From IMG/VR virus record IMGVR_UViG_3300030103_001924, positions 1 to 29,319 of that record: 29,319 nucleotides of DNA; one strand, given 5' to 3'. Below, one piece after another: positions 13,676-27,520 of the stretch. Position 1 is the first letter of the stretch; each line of letters opens with the position of its first letter. The notes under the pieces were generated by a model. That model saw nothing but the letters and a program-made list of their open reading frames with translations, was not told where the DNA came from and ran no database searches. The DNA comes from a virus. A program made the translations under genes and the position numbers.

Positions 13676-13896
13676 AAACAGGGAACATTATATCTCTAGC
13701 AATTCAACTAGGTACAGATGGGAATGTATATTCTGAAATGTCTGAACTACCTATTGAAGAAGTAGATGATATATTTAAAGATAAATATGAAGCATCTTTA
13801 GTAAAAACTATACATAAGTTTATGAATAGGAAATTTAGAGATGCTTCAATATCTTTAGAAAGAGAGCTACAGGCTGTAACATCTACTCTTAAGTAG
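13672..13896 (+). CDS. small hypothetical protein, last + strand gene (74 aa)
   Basis: GTG start overlapping the nrdB stop (GTGA), with AAGGA about 11 nt upstream. The 74-aa product has a strand-like N-terminus (NIISLAIQLG), an acidic middle and a basic helical C-terminus (HKFMNRKFRDASISLEREL). No family recognised. Its last 8 nt overlap the end of the opposite-strand lysozyme gene. Confidence 0.6.
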   Translation: MKTGNIISLAIQLGTDGNVYSEMSELPIEEVDDIFKDKYEASLVKTIHKFMNRKFRDASISLERELQAVTSTLK

Positions 13897-14302
13897 GATA
13901 GGTGTTATATCGTATCATGTCGGTAACTTCAGTGGATCTGGAGCCTACCTGTCTAGCCCATTTTGAGTCCATGAACTCATCAGCAGCTTTTTCATACTGC
14001 TTTTCCTCCATATAACTCAAGGCTTTTACGAACTTAGAGAGAGAATAGACACCTATATTAAAAGCTAGGTTCAATATAGCGTCCCTCCTAGCTCCCTCTA
14101 GATATTTATAGAAAGAAAACTTATCTAATAGCTGCTCATGAAAGCTGTGTATATCATTATTTAACAGATATATTGCTTCTTCTTTTGTTATGCCTCTATC
14201 TTCTAAGTTCCTACCAATACCTATTGTTATCTTATTAGATGTACAGCGGTAAGGTTTTAGCTTTATACCTTCATGCCTGATTAGTAAATCAATCAGCCCC
14301 AT
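13889..14302 (-). CDS. T4-type lysozyme (GH24 endolysin), E-C-T active site
   Basis: Muramidase of 137 aa that would cut the glycan backbone of host peptidoglycan at lysis. It follows T4 lysozyme: RHEGIKLKPY, then ITIGIGRNL, GITKEEAIYLLNNDI, RRDAILNLAFNIG and SKWARQVGSR near the end. Catalytic positions are E11, C20 and T26, exactly the T4 numbering E11-D20-T26 but with Cys for Asp. The E-8-D/C-5-T motif is known in phage GH24 enzymes. ATG at 14302 was chosen because it reproduces T4 numbering; a GTG at 14308 adds two residues. No signal peptide, so it needs the holin for export. It overlaps the monooxygenase gene upstream by 14 nt. Confidence 0.95.
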   Translation of the reverse strand: MGLIDLLIRHEGIKLKPYRCTSNKITIGIGRNLEDRGITKEEAIYLLNNDIHSFHEQLLDKFSFYKYLEGARRDAILNLAFNIGVYSLSKFVKALSYMEEKQYEKAADEFMDSKWARQVGSRSTEVTDMIRYNTYPT

Positions 14303-15593
14303 TTCCACGCTCTAATTTGATTTTATTATATCCTTCTTGATCAAGATGAGTGACAGCAATCCAAGCATGAGACATTTCATCTCCTGTGCGACTACCACCA
14401 TATACCCACTGATCAGGATCAGGGTTGTTGGGATTATCAGATGTGTTGTCATACCATTGCTTTACTACTAGTACTTCTCCCGCAAGCAACAAAGGAGCCT
14501 CTGAAGGATTGTATATATGGCTATGATGCCATGTAGCACTCCAATTAGATATTTGACTTACGGGCTTTGTACGGCCTGTAAACGGATTAAATATCTCTAG
14601 TGATGCAGCATTCATACGGAGATGTCCATGAGGCTGAAAACTGTCTATTCTTACGGGATGATCAAAGCTGTGAAAGCCTTGAGTCATGGCATAACCATGC
14701 GGGGGTACAATAAGATGACCATTTTCATAGCCTTCTCTCAATGGGTATAGTCTTAGGTCTTGCTTGTAAACGTCATTAACTTCTTCATAGTCCTTATCAT
14801 GGAACCACAAGCCAATCTCTACTACATTGTCTCTAATCATGTCTCCTTCGGCTGTAGCTCCTACGCCTCCGGGGAACATGTGGATATCCCAACGGACTAG
14901 AGAGTTGGCTGGAAATATACGGCATACCCCATCGGGCATGACCTCTCCCCATTTTCCCATTGCATATTCAGTAAGTTGCCCATATTGCTGTAGCTCACCC
15001 TGATCATCATACATATAAATATCTGAATTAGCATGATGTACAACCGCTGCTGCATCCCCTCTGGGCTTTACCTGTACTGCCTTGATGCATCTAGATTCTG
15101 CTAACTGCGGATCAGTAAACTCTTTACTCCAAAGATCATTCCCATTTGCAGGTATATCATAAGGAGAAGAAGGAATAACAAGATCTGGAGATCCAAACTC
15201 AGGTTCAAAATTCCATGCATCTAGACTAGGAAGTTTTGGAGTCTGTACTGTACGATCTATATCTCCATAAGGCGATCCAGAGTCTACCCATTCTACAATA
15301 GTGTCTATCTCTTCAGGCTTTAAACGCCAATCTCCTTCTAGATTTTGAATACCTATATGATCGTCATAAGCGTATGGAGGCATCTCTCTGTTGGCTACCT
15401 TGTAAGCAATCAAAGGACTCCAAGGTCTTACTTGCTCATAACCTTCAAAAGACATTGGACCTATGCCGCCCTCACGATGGCATACTAAACATTTATTATT
15501 TATAATATCTGCAACATCATCAACATAATCTACATGTTGAGCAGCAGCAGGGAAAGTTATAGCAGCACAAATAGCCAGTAAAGTCTTTTTCAT
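14289..15593 (-). CDS. secreted cytochrome c / type II copper monooxygenase fusion (PHM-like)
   Basis: 434-aa predicted periplasmic redox enzyme. ATG at 15593 has AGGTGG just upstream and opens a signal peptide (MKKTLLAICAAITFPAAA, cleavage near residue 18). Next is a small cytochrome c domain with C35-x2-C38-H39 and a probable axial Met (M71 in REMPPY), then W103-V-D-x-G-x-P, typical of these domains. The rest resembles Cu(II) ascorbate-dependent monooxygenases: H186-H187 (VVHHAN), H238 (IHMFPGG followed by IGLWF), H322-x-H324 (PHGHLR) and M407 (TGDEMSHAW), together the CuH and CuM ligand sets. C169 and C224 could form a disulphide. The substrate cannot be read from sequence. In family members haem c may pass electrons to copper. 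In a phage this is an auxiliary metabolic gene, expressed with late genes. Confidence 0.88.
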   Translation of the reverse strand: MKKTLLAICAAITFPAAAQHVDYVDDVADIINNKCLVCHREGGIGPMSFEGYEQVRPWSPLIAYKVANREMPPYAYDDHIGIQNLEGDWRLKPEEIDTIVEWVDSGSPYGDIDRTVQTPKLPSLDAWNFEPEFGSPDLVIPSSPYDIPANGNDLWSKEFTDPQLAESRCIKAVQVKPRGDAAAVVHHANSDIYMYDDQGELQQYGQLTEYAMGKWGEVMPDGVCRIFPANSLVRWDIHMFPGGVGATAEGDMIRDNVVEIGLWFHDKDYEEVNDVYKQDLRLYPLREGYENGHLIVPPHGYAMTQGFHSFDHPVRIDSFQPHGHLRMNAASLEIFNPFTGRTKPVSQISNWSATWHHSHIYNPSEAPLLLAGEVLVVKQWYDNTSDNPNNPDPDQWVYGGSRTGDEMSHAWIAVTHLDQEGYNKIKLERGNGAD

Positions 15594-15594
15594 A

Positions 15595-15765
15595 TTACCA
15601 CCTGTCAAATAACTTATCAGATGAACATTGAGGCTCAGACCTACAGTCTCTAACATTCATTTGGAATAGCCTCTGATTAACTTTATTATCAAACTCTATA
15701 GGAAAATCATATGTAGTTGTGGAACAATTTGTTAAAAGTATACATATTATAATTAATTTCTTCAT
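15595..15765 (-). CDS. small putative lipoprotein (56 aa), possible o-spanin
   Basis: The ATG overlaps the stop of the 1636-aa gene (ATGA) and the stop lies 1 nt before the monooxygenase start, so it is tightly built into the operon. The product starts with a signal peptide (MKKLIIICILLTNC) whose lipobox is L-T-N-C, with an unusual Asn before the Cys at 14. The mature part of 43 residues is Thr/Ser-rich at first and has two further cysteines (C41, C47) that could form a disulphide. It could be an outer-membrane spanin subunit like phage Rz1, or a helper of the monooxygenase. No proline-rich stretch, as in typical Rz1, is seen. Confidence 0.7.
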   Translation of the reverse strand: MKKLIIICILLTNCSTTTYDFPIEFDNKVNQRLFQMNVRDCRSEPQCSSDKLFDRW

Positions 15766-18700
15766 GATAACGCTCTTAGTATTTTACCTCCTTTCGCAAG
15801 TCCTTCTCTATCTCTGTCGATTGTAGCACCTACAGCACCCACTAAACCAAATACTTTTATCTGATCATATACTGGATGTTTCTTACCGCTTCTAGTAGAA
15901 ATCTCTCCTACTTTATTTCCTAGATGTACATTACCCTTTTTAGTGGGTCTGAGTCTTGGCTCTGAAGCAGATCGCTCATAACGTGTCATCTCAACACCCT
16001 CTGGAAACTCTGCTTGTAAGGTGTAGTAATGCTGGCTTCCGTCTTCTACAGAAACTATGGGAAAACTAGATGGAGGTTCTGGGTCAAATCCCTCTGGAAC
16101 TTGAGTCCATTTCCAACCAGCCTTCTTTTTAAATAAATTTGTTTTTATTTTTCTACCATCTGTGCGGGTTTCTCCATCTAATAATTCTTTAGAGACTTGC
16201 ATAACTGGTTTACCCTCTGGAGTAACACCAATAAGAGCTTTATCTGGAAACTCTCCAGTAATGTCTACTGGGCCTTCTGGCCCTCCCATTTCTAAATATC
16301 TCCCACCGGGCTGTTGCCCCATACTTCCTATAAAGGGCTTGTAGTCTCTGTTTTCAGGATCAAAAAATCTTTGAGGGGCTGGCATTACATTTCGAGGTTC
16401 TGATTCTCTAAATAGTCTAGCAGAGCTTTCAGGTATAGTTTCACTTTTAACAGCAACGCTCTCCTCAAAGTCATCATAAGCCATGTCTCTAGCTTTAATT
16501 CTATCTAGCTCAGTTGTTATTAAATAAGTTTCATCCATCAAGTCTACGCCAGTATCTACACCTATCTCATCAGCCAATTCATTTGATCTTTGAAAGACCT
16601 GAAACTCTTCATCTGTGTAGCCTCTAAGCCTTGAAAACTCTTCGCCACCTTCCCCAACTTGTTCTATTACTTCATCAGGTATAGGGCTATGCTTTTCATC
16701 TAGCAAAGAGCGAGTGTTGGTTTGCAAGAACTCTGAATACTTAGGATCATTTGTAGATAATTCAGGTACAAATTCTGCGTTCTCATCAACACGATTAACT
16801 ATTCTTGTTGCCGCCGATACAGCTGAATCTCTAGATACATTTCTTTTAGAGTAGTTTTCTATAACATCTGCTAGTAGCTCTATGACAACTTTGCCACCAC
16901 CACCAAACTCTACTCGCTCTTCCTCATCAATAAAGGCTCCACCAGCCTGTTCATTGTAAGGAACACCTGTCATCCTATCTATACGCTCATCGGGTTCTAC
17001 AGCTGTTCTAGGAACATCATAGACCTCACCGCCTATATTAAATAGAGTTCTTCTTAGCGGAGAATCTTCTTCAGGTCTTGCTAGTCTAGTGCCTATCATA
17101 TCGGAATATTGCTTAACAAGCTCTTTAACAGTAGACCCTACAGACTCTCCCGGTCCAAATCGCATCTTCTCATATGCGTTCTTAATCAAATCTGTAGATA
17201 CTTGTGTGGGCATATATCGACCACCAATAAACTGACCTATAGCTTTATTACTAAAATTACCTTCTTTTAAATATTGTGCTGTCTTCCCCTTTCCCACCAG
17301 ATCTATAGAGGCTTCAATTTTTCTAGAAAGTTCTTGAGCATTCCTGTACAAAGCCTTTTCTCTATTTACATAATCTCCTACTATCTCATCTTGTGTGGTT
17401 CTGTAGTTTACAAAAACACTCTGTAGGTTTCTGTTATCTTCATAGTAGTCTGATATAGCAAATCTTAAAGAATCTGCGGGGTCTAGCTCTTTAAACCTTA
17501 CACCTAACATTGCGACAAGTTCAGTAGCAGGTAATGCATTCTTTCCTGTGTATGTATTAGGTATATCAAGCCCTGCTTCAAAAAGATTTTTACCTTGAGT
17601 AACAAACCCCGGTTCAAATGCCTTTAGAATATGATAAGGAGTAGCCGTTAATTTTTCTTCCGTAGTCATGTCTGCGGTAAACAGAGCCTTTCCATCTGGA
17701 GTTCTTCCGTTACCTTTTAGAGCAAACCCAACATCTGTTATTGCTTTTGTAAGTATAGTTTCATCTACATATGGTCTTACTAAACTACCTGCTGCACTTA
17801 CAGCAGCATCACCTAAATATTTATCTAGCCTCTCTCCCTGTAAACTGCCATCTCGTATCTCACGATAAGCCGCCATTATTGGTTCTTTAATCACACTATA
17901 GCTATCTAAAAACTGTGTGTCAGATGTATGTAGCTTACCGTCTATTCTTAGAAATAACTTTGGTGCATCCTTTGACCAAGGAGTTTCAGTCAAAGTCTGT
18001 GCAGCTTGTCGTTCTTCTTCAGTTAGTCCTGCAAGTTTAGCCGTAGCTGACCCAGCAGCATAGAAGGCTCCGTTAGTTGCGAGGAATCCTCCAAACCTTC
18101 TTAGTCCTCTAGCTTTTAAAGTAGCATTACCTGAAGTTATTTCACGGGATGCTTGTCTAACTATATTTGCTGACGTTCTAATAATCTCAGCAGGAAAACT
18201 TACAAAGCTACCAAGCGGTGCGTTTCTTAAAGACTTTATACCTTTAGGAACTCTGTCATAGTTAGGCAAAGTATTCCTAATTACATCAGCAGCCTCTTCT
18301 TCAAGAGTGGCTAGATCTCTATCTGGGAATGCTTTTTTAAGAGTATCTAGCTCTTGATTGTATGCACTTATTTTGAATAGATCATCAGTAGCAACATATA
18401 CGTCTTCTACAAACTCAACAGCCTTGCCTCCATACTGTCCTAGCTTGCCTAATCTATCTTTTAATTTTCGAGGATCAATCAGAGTATCTCTGTCTGATTC
18501 TAATAAAGATCTAAATTCTCCTACCTTTACATTAGTGTTAATAACCCCTAGCCTTAGATACTTTTCATAAAGTTCATCTAGAGTTACATCTTGTCCTTTC
18601 ATTATTGAATTTTTAAGTGTTGTTCCCGCACCACTAAACTCGTAGGGTTTTAGGCCATTAGCTGTTCCAAACTGCAAACCACCTAATAGGTTTCTAGCCT

Positions 18701-20672
18701 GTGTAGTTACACTAAATACAGTTTTAGCAGCCTGTGAAGATCCTTTAAGGGACAAGAAAGATCTATATGCATTAGCCAATGCACCTTCAGCCTGTGGGGA
18801 CGATAAGAAAGACTCATTTTGTTTTATTGCAGCTATTATCTCAGGCGTTGTGTATTTATTATCTAGTACTGAATTAGTGCCTGTTATTTTATTAGCATCC
18901 TTGATTAAATCTACAGGAGCATTATTTTCATCAAAGATATATTTACCCTGAGTGCCTAGCCTATTTAAGTTATTATAAAACTTGCTAGTCTCTACAAACC
19001 TAGACATCTTGCTTACAGTAAGAACAATATTATCCGCAGGATCTTCTATTTCTCCCATTAAGGCTCTAATTTCAGGAGCTATTTCTTTTTTACCTTCTAA
19101 TATTTCTTTGTTAATTCTTCTAGATCTTACAAAGTATTCTCCTGCTGCATTTCTATCTGCAAAGCCTCCCTGATCTAGAATATTATTTATTTGTATTTCT
19201 GCTTGCCTGTAAGCCTCATCTAGATCCATTGCACCCTGAGTTTTATCCATAGCCTGTTGGACTAGATACTCTCTTGCATCATTAACAACATCTTCAGATG
19301 GCTTGAATCCTGTATCTTCAAATAAACTATAAGACCTTCTCAGATACGATCCTACATTTTCGTTTACAAGTTCTCTAACCTCTAAGGGTATGCTAGAGCT
19401 TCCTGTTATCTCTGTTGATAGATCATCAATAAGCTCTCTAGCATTTAAAACTTCTTCTGCTACCTCAGTAGAAAATCCAAACTCCTCTTCTATATCCATT
19501 AGAGCAAGTTTTCTATCTGATCTTGATAAATTTTTTAACTTTGGATCTGAAAGAACTTGTTGAACTCTCTCGCTTATATCAACATCAGAGTCTTTAGCCA
19601 TCTCATCCATAGCTGTAGTTAATCTGGAAGCTATGTGTTCGGCTCTACTAACAGCAGATCTCTGAGCATACTGGGCATCATCAAAAGCACTTTTAGCCTT
19701 GGGGGTAAAGTAACCTCTGCTAGTAAAAAGCTGCCTAAATACTCTATTCAAACGACTGCTTTGCTGCTGTTGTACTTGTGCAGCCCCTTCAGCAGTTTCG
19801 TTAAATTCTATTTGGTCTTCGCGCTTTTGTAGTCCTGCTCTTTCTCTAGAGTCTTTTAGATAATCTACAAATACCTCGCCCTTTTCTTCGGGGGTAAGGT
19901 CTTTAGCATTTTTATTAAACATTGAACGGGCTTTTGAATAGACACCTACCGCCCCTTTTCCACCTGCCACGGATAAATCTACTAAGGCTCCAAGTGCAAG
20001 ACCCTCACCCACCAACTTCAATCTCTTCTCAACTTCAGAGTCATCTTCATTAGTTGCTAGGTAAGCTGATATGTCACCTACGGTAGATTCGGGGAATGTT
20101 TCTTCTAAAAAGTTAAATAGATTTTCATCTTCATCGGCTAAAAGTTGATCTGTAAATAAACCAGCTAAAGCACCTTGAACAAGCCTTGGAGCTTGTTGAA
20201 TAGCTTTTGCTCCCGCTACTTTTGAGCCTACAGCCAAAAAGGGTGCAACTTCTGCAATCTTCCCCACAGTAGTTGTAGCCTCTCGTATTCTACCTGTCTC
20301 TGGGTCAACCAGATCTTCTTGGCCTTGAGTAGCTAAAGCTGTGCCTATTTGCCCAGACATTTGCTGAATGGCTTCACGCTCTTCACCGCCGGGAATAAGA
20401 TTAGATACAAAATCAACACCTGTTCCAATTAAATTTGCCTGAGTTCTTGCAAGAACTTTTCTAAAATCAAAACCTACCCCTTCCTTTTCTACAAGAATAT
20501 CTTTTACTTCTTCCTCTACAGGCTCTGGCTGCTCTACAGGCTCTGGCTGCTCTACAGGCTCTGGCTGCTTTGCACGTTTCTGAGCTACTTTAGCTTCAAC
20601 TTCCTCATCTGTAACATCATCAGGAACGTCAACAATAACTTCACCTGTAGATAATCTAACTGTTCTAGGCAT
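15762..20672 (-). CDS. giant internal-virion/ejection-type protein (1636 aa)
   Basis: Largest gene in the window. No enzyme motif was found. The N-terminus (LSTGEVIVDVPDDVTDEEVEAKV) is a short module seen at the start of large phage virion proteins, followed by three PEPVEQ repeats (about residues 37-53). Most of the rest is long, charged, probably helical sequence with a few apolar, Ala/Gly-rich stretches (about residues 140-175, and VAPFLAV; GGFLATNGAFYAAGSATAKLAG) that could enter membranes. The size and position last in the virion block, before lysis genes, parallel T7 gp16, which is ejected into the host and spans the envelope. The role is inferred from size, order and composition. Ribosome binding site AAGGA before ATG at 20672. 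Confidence 0.7.
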   Translation of the reverse strand: MPRTVRLSTGEVIVDVPDDVTDEEVEAKVAQKRAKQPEPVEQPEPVEQPEPVEEEVKDILVEKEGVGFDFRKVLARTQANLIGTGVDFVSNLIPGGEEREAIQQMSGQIGTALATQGQEDLVDPETGRIREATTTVGKIAEVAPFLAVGSKVAGAKAIQQAPRLVQGALAGLFTDQLLADEDENLFNFLEETFPESTVGDISAYLATNEDDSEVEKRLKLVGEGLALGALVDLSVAGGKGAVGVYSKARSMFNKNAKDLTPEEKGEVFVDYLKDSRERAGLQKREDQIEFNETAEGAAQVQQQQSSRLNRVFRQLFTSRGYFTPKAKSAFDDAQYAQRSAVSRAEHIASRLTTAMDEMAKDSDVDISERVQQVLSDPKLKNLSRSDRKLALMDIEEEFGFSTEVAEEVLNARELIDDLSTEITGSSSIPLEVRELVNENVGSYLRRSYSLFEDTGFKPSEDVVNDAREYLVQQAMDKTQGAMDLDEAYRQAEIQINNILDQGGFADRNAAGEYFVRSRRINKEILEGKKEIAPEIRALMGEIEDPADNIVLTVSKMSRFVETSKFYNNLNRLGTQGKYIFDENNAPVDLIKDANKITGTNSVLDNKYTTPEIIAAIKQNESFLSSPQAEGALANAYRSFLSLKGSSQAAKTVFSVTTQARNLLGGLQFGTANGLKPYEFSGAGTTLKNSIMKGQDVTLDELYEKYLRLGVINTNVKVGEFRSLLESDRDTLIDPRKLKDRLGKLGQYGGKAVEFVEDVYVATDDLFKISAYNQELDTLKKAFPDRDLATLEEEAADVIRNTLPNYDRVPKGIKSLRNAPLGSFVSFPAEIIRTSANIVRQASREITSGNATLKARGLRRFGGFLATNGAFYAAGSATAKLAGLTEEERQAAQTLTETPWSKDAPKLFLRIDGKLHTSDTQFLDSYSVIKEPIMAAYREIRDGSLQGERLDKYLGDAAVSAAGSLVRPYVDETILTKAITDVGFALKGNGRTPDGKALFTADMTTEEKLTATPYHILKAFEPGFVTQGKNLFEAGLDIPNTYTGKNALPATELVAMLGVRFKELDPADSLRFAISDYYEDNRNLQSVFVNYRTTQDEIVGDYVNREKALYRNAQELSRKIEASIDLVGKGKTAQYLKEGNFSNKAIGQFIGGRYMPTQVSTDLIKNAYEKMRFGPGESVGSTVKELVKQYSDMIGTRLARPEEDSPLRRTLFNIGGEVYDVPRTAVEPDERIDRMTGVPYNEQAGGAFIDEEERVEFGGGGKVVIELLADVIENYSKRNVSRDSAVSAATRIVNRVDENAEFVPELSTNDPKYSEFLQTNTRSLLDEKHSPIPDEVIEQVGEGGEEFSRLRGYTDEEFQVFQRSNELADEIGVDTGVDLMDETYLITTELDRIKARDMAYDDFEESVAVKSETIPESSARLFRESEPRNVMPAPQRFFDPENRDYKPFIGSMGQQPGGRYLEMGGPEGPVDITGEFPDKALIGVTPEGKPVMQVSKELLDGETRTDGRKIKTNLFKKKAGWKWTQVPEGFDPEPPSSFPIVSVEDGSQHYYTLQAEFPEGVEMTRYERSASEPRLRPTKKGNVHLGNKVGEISTRSGKKHPVYDQIKVFGLVGAVGATIDRDREGLAKGGKILRALS
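20521..20574 (+). repeat. 3 x 18-bp tandem repeat encoding PEPVEQ
   Basis: Three tandem 18-bp units at 20521, 20539 and 20557; the first two are identical and the third differs in two bases. On the - strand they encode the hexapeptide PEPVEQ. They form a Pro/Glu linker after the N-terminal module of the 1636-aa protein and could change in copy number by slippage without shifting the frame. Confidence 0.9.
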
Positions 20673-26825: not shown

Positions 26826-27113
26826 TCACCACTTAACCTTGTGCGACCAAAACCTAGCCGATAGTTTTGACGGATTAGAATCCTGTGCATTATGCCTAGC
26901 ATAGTAAGATTTCTTTCTTGCTTTATCTTTAGCTGTTGTAGGATTTTTACCTGCACCTTTTACACCCTGTTGCCCAAAACGAATTGTTTTTATTTTATCT
27001 CCTACTTTGGCTACAACGACATGACTTTTAGTAGGATGACTAGGAGTTCTTTTAGGTTTATTAAAACCTGTAACTCCTGCTCTAGCTAATCTAGGATCTT
27101 TTTCTTTAGCCAT
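26826..27113 (-). CDS. conserved basic phage protein (95 aa), DUF6321-like
   Basis: Very basic 95-aa protein. The segments DPRLARAGVTGFNKPKRTP, SHPTKSHVVVAKVGDKIKTI, RFGQQGVKGAG and the C-terminal KSYYARHN...ARFWSHKVKW follow a pattern I remember from many tailed phages (annotated, I believe, as DUF6321), often close to virion and lysis genes. The high charge suggests DNA or head-core binding. The start ATG has AGGAAAG upstream and overlaps the stop of the holin gene at 27113. Confidence 0.8.
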   Translation of the reverse strand: MAKEKDPRLARAGVTGFNKPKRTPSHPTKSHVVVAKVGDKIKTIRFGQQGVKGAGKNPTTAKDKARKKSYYARHNAQDSNPSKLSARFWSHKVKW

Positions 27114-27520
27114 TATTCTTTCCTATCTACCTTCTTAACTTTTTCTACTGTTCTCATAGCACCAAGACCTAGCATACCCATAAGCACAGGCATCATTAGA
27201 TCAAGTTCTATCATAGGGACTACTACTCCAGTTTTTAAAAGCTCTAAAGCCATATTTACAAAAGGTATTATTAAAAAGTTACCTGCCATTCCAAGACAAC
27301 ATACCCAACCAATTGCGGGCCTCCAGCCAGCTACAAACATACTGTGGTGCTGTGCTTCTGTTTTGTTTACCTCTATCTGAGCCTTAACTACTTCATGAGC
27401 ATGACGCTCTGCCATAGTAGCTATGTCATGTGCCAGTTTATCTTTTAGATCTTTATCAGTTACAACCTTATCTAAAATATCTGATACAGGACCAATTAAA
27501 GTAGAGATTAAACCAAGCAT
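27113..27520 (-). CDS. holin, GTA-type 3TM family
   Basis: 135-aa membrane protein that would permeabilise the inner membrane and release the lysozyme. It shows the 3TM holin pattern: hydrophobic N-terminal helix (LGLISTLIGPVSDIL), a charged amphipathic middle ending QIEVNKTEAQHHSMFVAGWRP, and two C-terminal hydrophobic segments (AIGWVCCLGMAGNFLIIPF; MMPVLMGMLGLGAM) with a basic tail. The EAQHHSMFVAGWRPAIGW segment is the hallmark of this family, first noted in gene transfer agents. The start overlaps the stop of the next small protein (TAATG). It lies about 13 kb from the lysozyme, so lysis genes are split. Confidence 0.88.
   Translation of the reverse strand: MLGLISTLIGPVSDILDKVVTDKDLKDKLAHDIATMAERHAHEVVKAQIEVNKTEAQHHSMFVAGWRPAIGWVCCLGMAGNFLIIPFVNMALELLKTGVVVPMIELDLMMPVLMGMLGLGAMRTVEKVKKVDRKE

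Follow-up and report, generated by a model that had tools for sequence, protein, structure and literature searches.

The window analysed here, a linear IMG/VR virus record of 29,319 bases (IMGVR_UViG_3300030103_001924), carries a late gene for a secreted enzyme in which an N-terminal c-type cytochrome precedes a domain of predicted PHM/DBM fold. What looked like one odd gene is a recurrent phage-borne haem-copper oxygenase with a redox cassette, undescribed in the sources that we searched. The gene is accessory phage cargo and occurs in several unrelated phage backbones.

An intact gene in a late operon

The monooxygenase gene (14289..15593, minus strand) is an intact reading frame whose translation gives 434 amino acids and a stop, with a ribosome-binding site, AGGTGG, 5′ of the ATG at 15593. 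It starts 2 nt past the end of an upstream gene for a 56-aa lipoprotein (15595..15765, minus strand; lipobox LTNC, C-terminal CRSEPQC-LF), to which it is translationally coupled, and which itself overlaps by 4 bp the operon's upstream gene, coding for a late protein of 1636 aa (15762..20672, minus strand). This large protein is a conserved neighbour in relatives and is probably virion-associated; it had no confident Pfam match. On the other side, the monooxygenase gene overlaps by 20 bp that of a phage lysozyme (endolysin; 13889..14308, minus strand; PF00959, 6e-15; phrog_7). A preliminary description, made from the sequence alone, had taken the gene to be built into the late minus-strand operon and intact rather than decayed, and both points held: its neighbours adjoin it on both sides, the frame is uninterrupted, and dN/dS among viral copies was 0.03–0.11.

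Elsewhere, the window encodes a holin (27113..27520, minus strand; phrog_3427, 1e-35), a T7-type primase-helicase, a polymerase, an exonuclease, an endonuclease and RNR. The polymerase is nearest to those of the Pelagibacter podoviruses HTVC115P, HTVC103P and HTVC104P (49%). No Rfam RNA was found within the window.

A homologue of the small lipoprotein was located near the haem c-dicopper monooxygenase, hereafter type A, in 37 of 81 other loci examined and in none of 74 bacterial loci. No convincing homologue of its family was found in phage isolates, and the lipoprotein query, in a search run without a positive control, had no match in 136 host-family genomes. The family is recognizable by a lipobox and a C-terminal NxRxCRSxxxC-LF, and it recurs beside type A in many viruses. 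As a dedicated partner of the monooxygenase it is a weak candidate, most loci found with the lipoprotein query having no monooxygenase within about 5 kb. Another small protein, an EF-hand-like membrane protein of ~108 aa that is possibly a holin, recurs near the monooxygenase in unrelated viruses (L022, 11645-11974; L074, 12861-13187; L030, 3215-3541).

Domains and fold of the enzyme

Residues 1–18 (MKKTLLAICAAITFPAAA; 15540..15593, minus strand), read from the sequence, are a predicted signal peptide. They are followed by the haem c attachment motif C35-L-V-C38-H39 (15477..15491, minus strand) and by M71, in an MPP motif (15381..15383, minus strand), the probable sixth haem ligand. With CxxCH, a distal methionine at M71 and helices at residues 23–34, 52–67 and 93–104, this part has the features of a class I cytochrome c.

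A sequence search of the PDB with the protein and two profiles returned no PHM or DBM, only chance or cytochrome matches; therefore, a comparison of folds was needed. In the AlphaFold model built from an 81-sequence alignment (pLDDT 87.8, pTM 0.86), residues 131–421 (14331..15203, minus strand) were matched by VIA-align to human DBH (Z 18.9, 278 residues, 3.6 Å) and to PHM (Z 18.1, 252 residues, 3.2 Å), the next unrelated fold reaching only Z 8.1. The PHM/DBM fold proposed from the bare sequence was borne out by this structure prediction. The accompanying check with profile models went less well: Pfam Cytochrom_C gave a weak match just under the cut-off (E 0.003), and no Pfam copper-monooxygenase model, Cu2_monoox_C (PF03712) included, matched the window protein. 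PF03712 matches 7 of the 81 relatives at E ≤ 0.1 (best 5e-4), and some host paralogs exceed its cut-off. No model of PHROGs or NCBIfam matched the window protein, and Foldseek against viral structures gave only low-TM β-sandwich matches. We filed the enzyme in the PHM/DBM copper type II monooxygenase superfamily because fold and ligands agree, not because of the PF03712 model; by predicted fold and ligand order, this membership is well supported. The protein is a soluble, secreted β-sandwich, not an integral membrane CuMMO of three subunits (xmoCAB).

Copper ligands and the four types

The candidate copper ligands come in the order H, H, H (CuH), then H, H, M (CuM), as in PHM/DBM. For CuH, they are H186-H187 (15033..15038) and H238 (14880..14882); for CuM, they are H322-G-H324 (14622..14630) and M407, which shares a short segment with H409 (14367..14375), all on the minus strand. 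Checked against the translation, these ligands and C35, C38 and H39 were exactly at the positions given in the preliminary description. C35, C38, H39, M71, H186, H187, H238 and M407 were invariant in 81 of 81 aligned homologues, and the haem and copper candidates including H322, H324 and M71 in 52 of 52 close homologues. Because of the latter, the motif pattern is not a matter of chance; the claim of a complete ligand set held as well. The same residues were invariant in 80 viral copies (58 distinct sequences) that had been preselected for PHGHLR, a bias that touches only H322/H324. M407 is offset from M314 of PHM by 93 residues, as is the C-terminal end of the alignment (421 to 328 in 1sdw). 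This agreement backs the register of the last copper ligand; for the other ligands, placement relies on motif and order only.

The CuM histidine pair is conserved in types A, B and C, with type B, the second enzyme of the viruses, having PHMH and the bacterial type C having PHLH. In the bacterial type D (570 aa), this HxH is replaced by R-x-N. Type D proteins (bacterial loci L082-L156, for instance L103 1987-3696) have an AhpC/TSA-like domain, N-terminal in the members matched by Pfam, a cytochrome c and a PHM domain. Judging from these residues, type D, found opposite the tandem arrays described below, is a probable one-copper or non-catalytic relative.

Type A is set apart by an invariant histidine cluster of its own, W355-H-H-S-H359 (14517..14531, minus strand). 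HHSH at 356–359 was invariant in 207 type A copies except for one S-to-N and is not kept in types B, C and D. H409 is likewise invariant and H312 near-invariant in type A, neither being shared by the other types at the examined positions. PHM binds its peptide through R240, N316 and Y318. At these positions, as anchored on the ligands, type A has Q320, H409 and W411, invariant in the 207 copies. Hence, with the PHM substrate residues absent, a peptidylglycine substrate is unlikely, and type A is probably not a peptide amidase.

A second enzyme and redox partners

In many viruses, type A is the first gene of a redox cassette. A search with type B found 75 new loci, with type A upstream in 67 and a contig edge at the start of the other 8. 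Wherever it was visible (67/67), B lay downstream of A, and the two genes often overlap by 26–65 bp. The modelled fold of type B (pLDDT 78) matched PHM with Z 17.1 and DBH with Z 17.2.

A c-type cytochrome gene precedes B in 12 of the 75 type B loci. The fullest arrangement is a five-gene viral redox cassette (L031, 9947-13843) that encodes type A, a cytochrome c, a Trx-like/cytochrome protein, SOUL (PF04832, 3e-44) and a stand-alone PHM-domain protein with complete ligands; the L031 cytochrome was above the Pfam Cytochrom_C cut-off. Partial copies of this cassette were seen in L026, L027, L028 and L030. In some viruses, the second enzyme is split into a cytochrome gene and a PHM gene with a SOUL haem-binding protein between them. 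Since one virus fuses the haem and copper modules that another encodes as separate neighbours, they should work together (the Rosetta-stone argument). The haem may be a built-in electron donor, for which the phage cytochrome c and the split enzyme genes provide circumstantial support. In viruses with both enzymes, A and B probably serve one pathway.

Distribution among viruses

The search for homologues in viruses and in the likely host, proposed in the preliminary description, was fruitful on both sides: relatives were found in 182 to at least 311 IMG/VR stretches of uncultured viruses, depending on the query, and paralogs in Pseudohongiellaceae. The exact synteny of the window, with the monooxygenase between the large late gene and the lysozyme, recurred in about 20 independent contigs, and terminase was present in related records. 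An empty site was found in L367, whose RNR small subunit is 93% identical to that of the window: lipoprotein and monooxygenase are both missing, and the large gene overlaps the lysozyme gene by 20 bp. Among relatives selected by RNR, 15 had type A and 44 with enough downstream sequence did not. In T4-like backbones, sheath, portal, scaffold and major head genes lie directly upstream of the A-B pair, the major head gene being the immediate upstream neighbour in 10 loci; relatives selected by the head gene comprised 4 with the enzyme and 55 without. In both backbones examined, the gene is absent from most members; therefore, it is not essential. In keeping with an auxiliary metabolic gene, the genome is genuinely viral and the enzyme that it encodes is of cellular type, intact and under selection.

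Among 50,697 phage isolate records there was no match to A or B, and among 72,556 plasmids there was none to A. The nearest relatives of the window enzyme are viral. In the tree, its clade, which unites podovirus and T4-like copies, was nearest to bacterial array genes, and the other viral copies formed a second clade. A single viral clade was not rejected (AU test, p-AU 0.48), and we therefore make no claim of the several separate host-to-phage transfers that the tree had led us to expect. Exchange of type A between unrelated phages is likely because similar genes are carried by different backbones.

Two long records, L076 (339,794 bases) and L080 (216,820 bases), encode the A-B pair and a terminase and may represent jumbo phages. 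A 335-kb contig binned as Candidatus Neomarinimicrobiota (L150) has type A together with gene families common to viral loci and is probably from a large phage, its contig having been wrongly binned into a bacterial MAG.

Bacterial relatives and the likely host

Bacterial homologues reached 79% identity. Of 294 genomes sampled within the order of the bacterial locus L085, 6 had type A at E ≤ 1e-60, all of them in the same family as L085. With the limit at E ≤ 1e-15, a sample of 398 genomes from the phylum gave 2, including the L085 genome itself. Pseudohongiella loci fall in this family as well. By these sequence counts, the bacterial source is confined almost entirely to a single family, Pseudohongiellaceae/OM182, and our host assignment rests on this gene distribution. 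A North Sea study describes Pseudohongiellaceae as little studied and related to OM182 (PMC8371827). Type-B-like paralogs were present in 116 of 137 genomes of the family, commonly 10 or more per genome and at most 40 candidates.

Bacterial type A genes are located in tandem arrays, next to genes for an MFS transporter, a GMC oxidoreductase, gluconate 2-dehydrogenase subunit 3, a PQQ dehydrogenase or a cupin. A conserved secreted protein (~317 aa; L085 3757-4710) without a Pfam match precedes the arrays and was seen in 48 bacterial loci. The inference in the preliminary description that the host can mature cytochrome c fits the finding that, of 8 genomes from the likely host family, all 8 encode Cytochrom_C_asm (CcmF/CcmC-type) proteins. 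The PCuAC copper chaperone was found in 0 of these 8, which does not imply a lack of copper supply.

Discussion

The phage enzyme shares the fold (Z 18–19) and the HH-H-HxH-M order of PHM and DBM/DBH (Pfam Cu2_monooxygen/Cu2_monoox_C) but is only 11–15% identical to them, below Pfam detection. In front of the shared fold, it has a cytochrome c domain where other domains are found in DBH, and it differs from PHM in the replacement of the peptide-binding residues and in the extra WHHSH cluster. Its closest cellular counterparts, the cytochrome c-PHM paralogs of Pseudohongiellaceae/OM182, have the same architecture and invariant residues; unlike the phage gene, they are chromosomal, arrayed in tandem with dehydrogenases and numerous in each genome, and some, those of type D, have an AhpC/TSA domain and no CuM HxH. 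Phage pmoC and viral amoC (PMC7674155) are likewise viral and linked to copper-dependent monooxygenation in the host envelope. They encode one membrane subunit of a CuMMO, whereas the enzyme described here is complete and soluble, of another fold, with its own haem and sometimes with a partner cytochrome and a second enzyme. By analogy only, LPMOs are also secreted copper monooxygenases served by PQQ/GMC dehydrogenases through a cytochrome domain (PMC5960967), with an unrelated fold, mononuclear copper and polysaccharide substrates.

On balance, we lean towards regarding the gene as accessory cargo for a periplasmic copper-dependent C–H monooxygenase that combines the PHM/DBM fold with a c-type cytochrome at the N-terminus, is of the type known from marine Pseudohongiellaceae (OM182) and would prolong substrate oxidation by the host. 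For the enzyme class there is good support; the substrate and the role we infer. Late in infection, the enzyme would be exported by Sec and its haem attached by the host Ccm system. The periplasmic chain of the host would supply reducing equivalents to the haem, possibly from the PQQ and GMC dehydrogenases encoded beside the bacterial arrays. Electrons would pass from haem to CuH and on to CuM, this supply taking the place of the ascorbate used by animal PHM/DBM, and CuM with O2 would hydroxylate a small external substrate already oxidised by the many paralogs of the host. Carbon and energy intake could thereby last until lysis. A bolder reading, which we hold possible but rather doubtful, is that in phages of a single marine bacterial family A, cytochrome c and B, in some viruses with SOUL, form a self-contained periplasmic module for two-step copper oxygenation; type A, with an additional His-rich metal or substrate site (WHHSH, H409, H312) absent from PHM/DBM, might then provide new chemistry that phages spread between unrelated genomes.

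The position of the gene in the late operon, beside lysis genes or the major head gene, its patchy, moron-like distribution and the small lipoprotein gene that often adjoins it could also be explained if the enzyme oxidised an envelope component, a signalling molecule or a toxic metabolite, and so excluded other phages or protected the infected cell. We think this unlikely, since the close homologues are ordinary host genes whose arrays with dehydrogenases and a transporter look catabolic, and the lipoprotein is also found without the monooxygenase. Haem and copper on one chain, the further haem proteins added by phages and the extra invariant histidines of type A might instead suggest a protein whose main task is to buffer copper, oxygen or electrons in the dying cell's periplasm, with hydroxylation secondary. 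This seems less probable still, as all six catalytic ligands are under strong constraint; moreover, both copper sites persist in viral A and B, whereas the CuM HxH has gone from some bacterial paralogs, and therefore the catalytic site is selectively kept in phages.

An enzyme carried by the virion and active during entry would agree with the 10 loci in which the gene immediately follows the major head gene, and with its position next to large late proteins. It is, however, hard to reconcile a Sec-type signal peptide and haem c, which imply periplasmic maturation, with virion assembly in the cytoplasm, and the gene occurs with unrelated virion types, making such a function very improbable. Finally, bacterial homologues of such high identity could raise the suspicion that the viral assembly includes host DNA, decayed or chimeric. 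Identical junctions in about 20 independent contigs and the clean empty site of L367 contradict chimeric host DNA, and with viral nearest relatives and the low dN/dS there is next to no probability left for either origin. The reading of a cargo enzyme that prolongs host oxidation is the one that we favour.

No phage-encoded copper monooxygenase of PHM/DBM type was found in the isolate records, in PHROGs or in the open literature, which, with subscription papers and preprints outside its scope, yielded nothing relevant on a viral PHM or on the bacterial family. The fold and the concept are known, and the combination, the prevalence and the host restriction are new. If active, these enzymes, related to the animal hydroxylases that make hormones and neurotransmitters, would mean that phages bring a complete secreted haem-copper oxygenase, often with electron-transfer partners, into infected ocean bacteria, and viral infection would be linked to the way in which a little-known bacterial family oxidises dissolved organic matter with O2. 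Being compact, the phage-encoded enzymes also offer natural test cases for working out the function of a large uncharacterised family of bacterial proteins.
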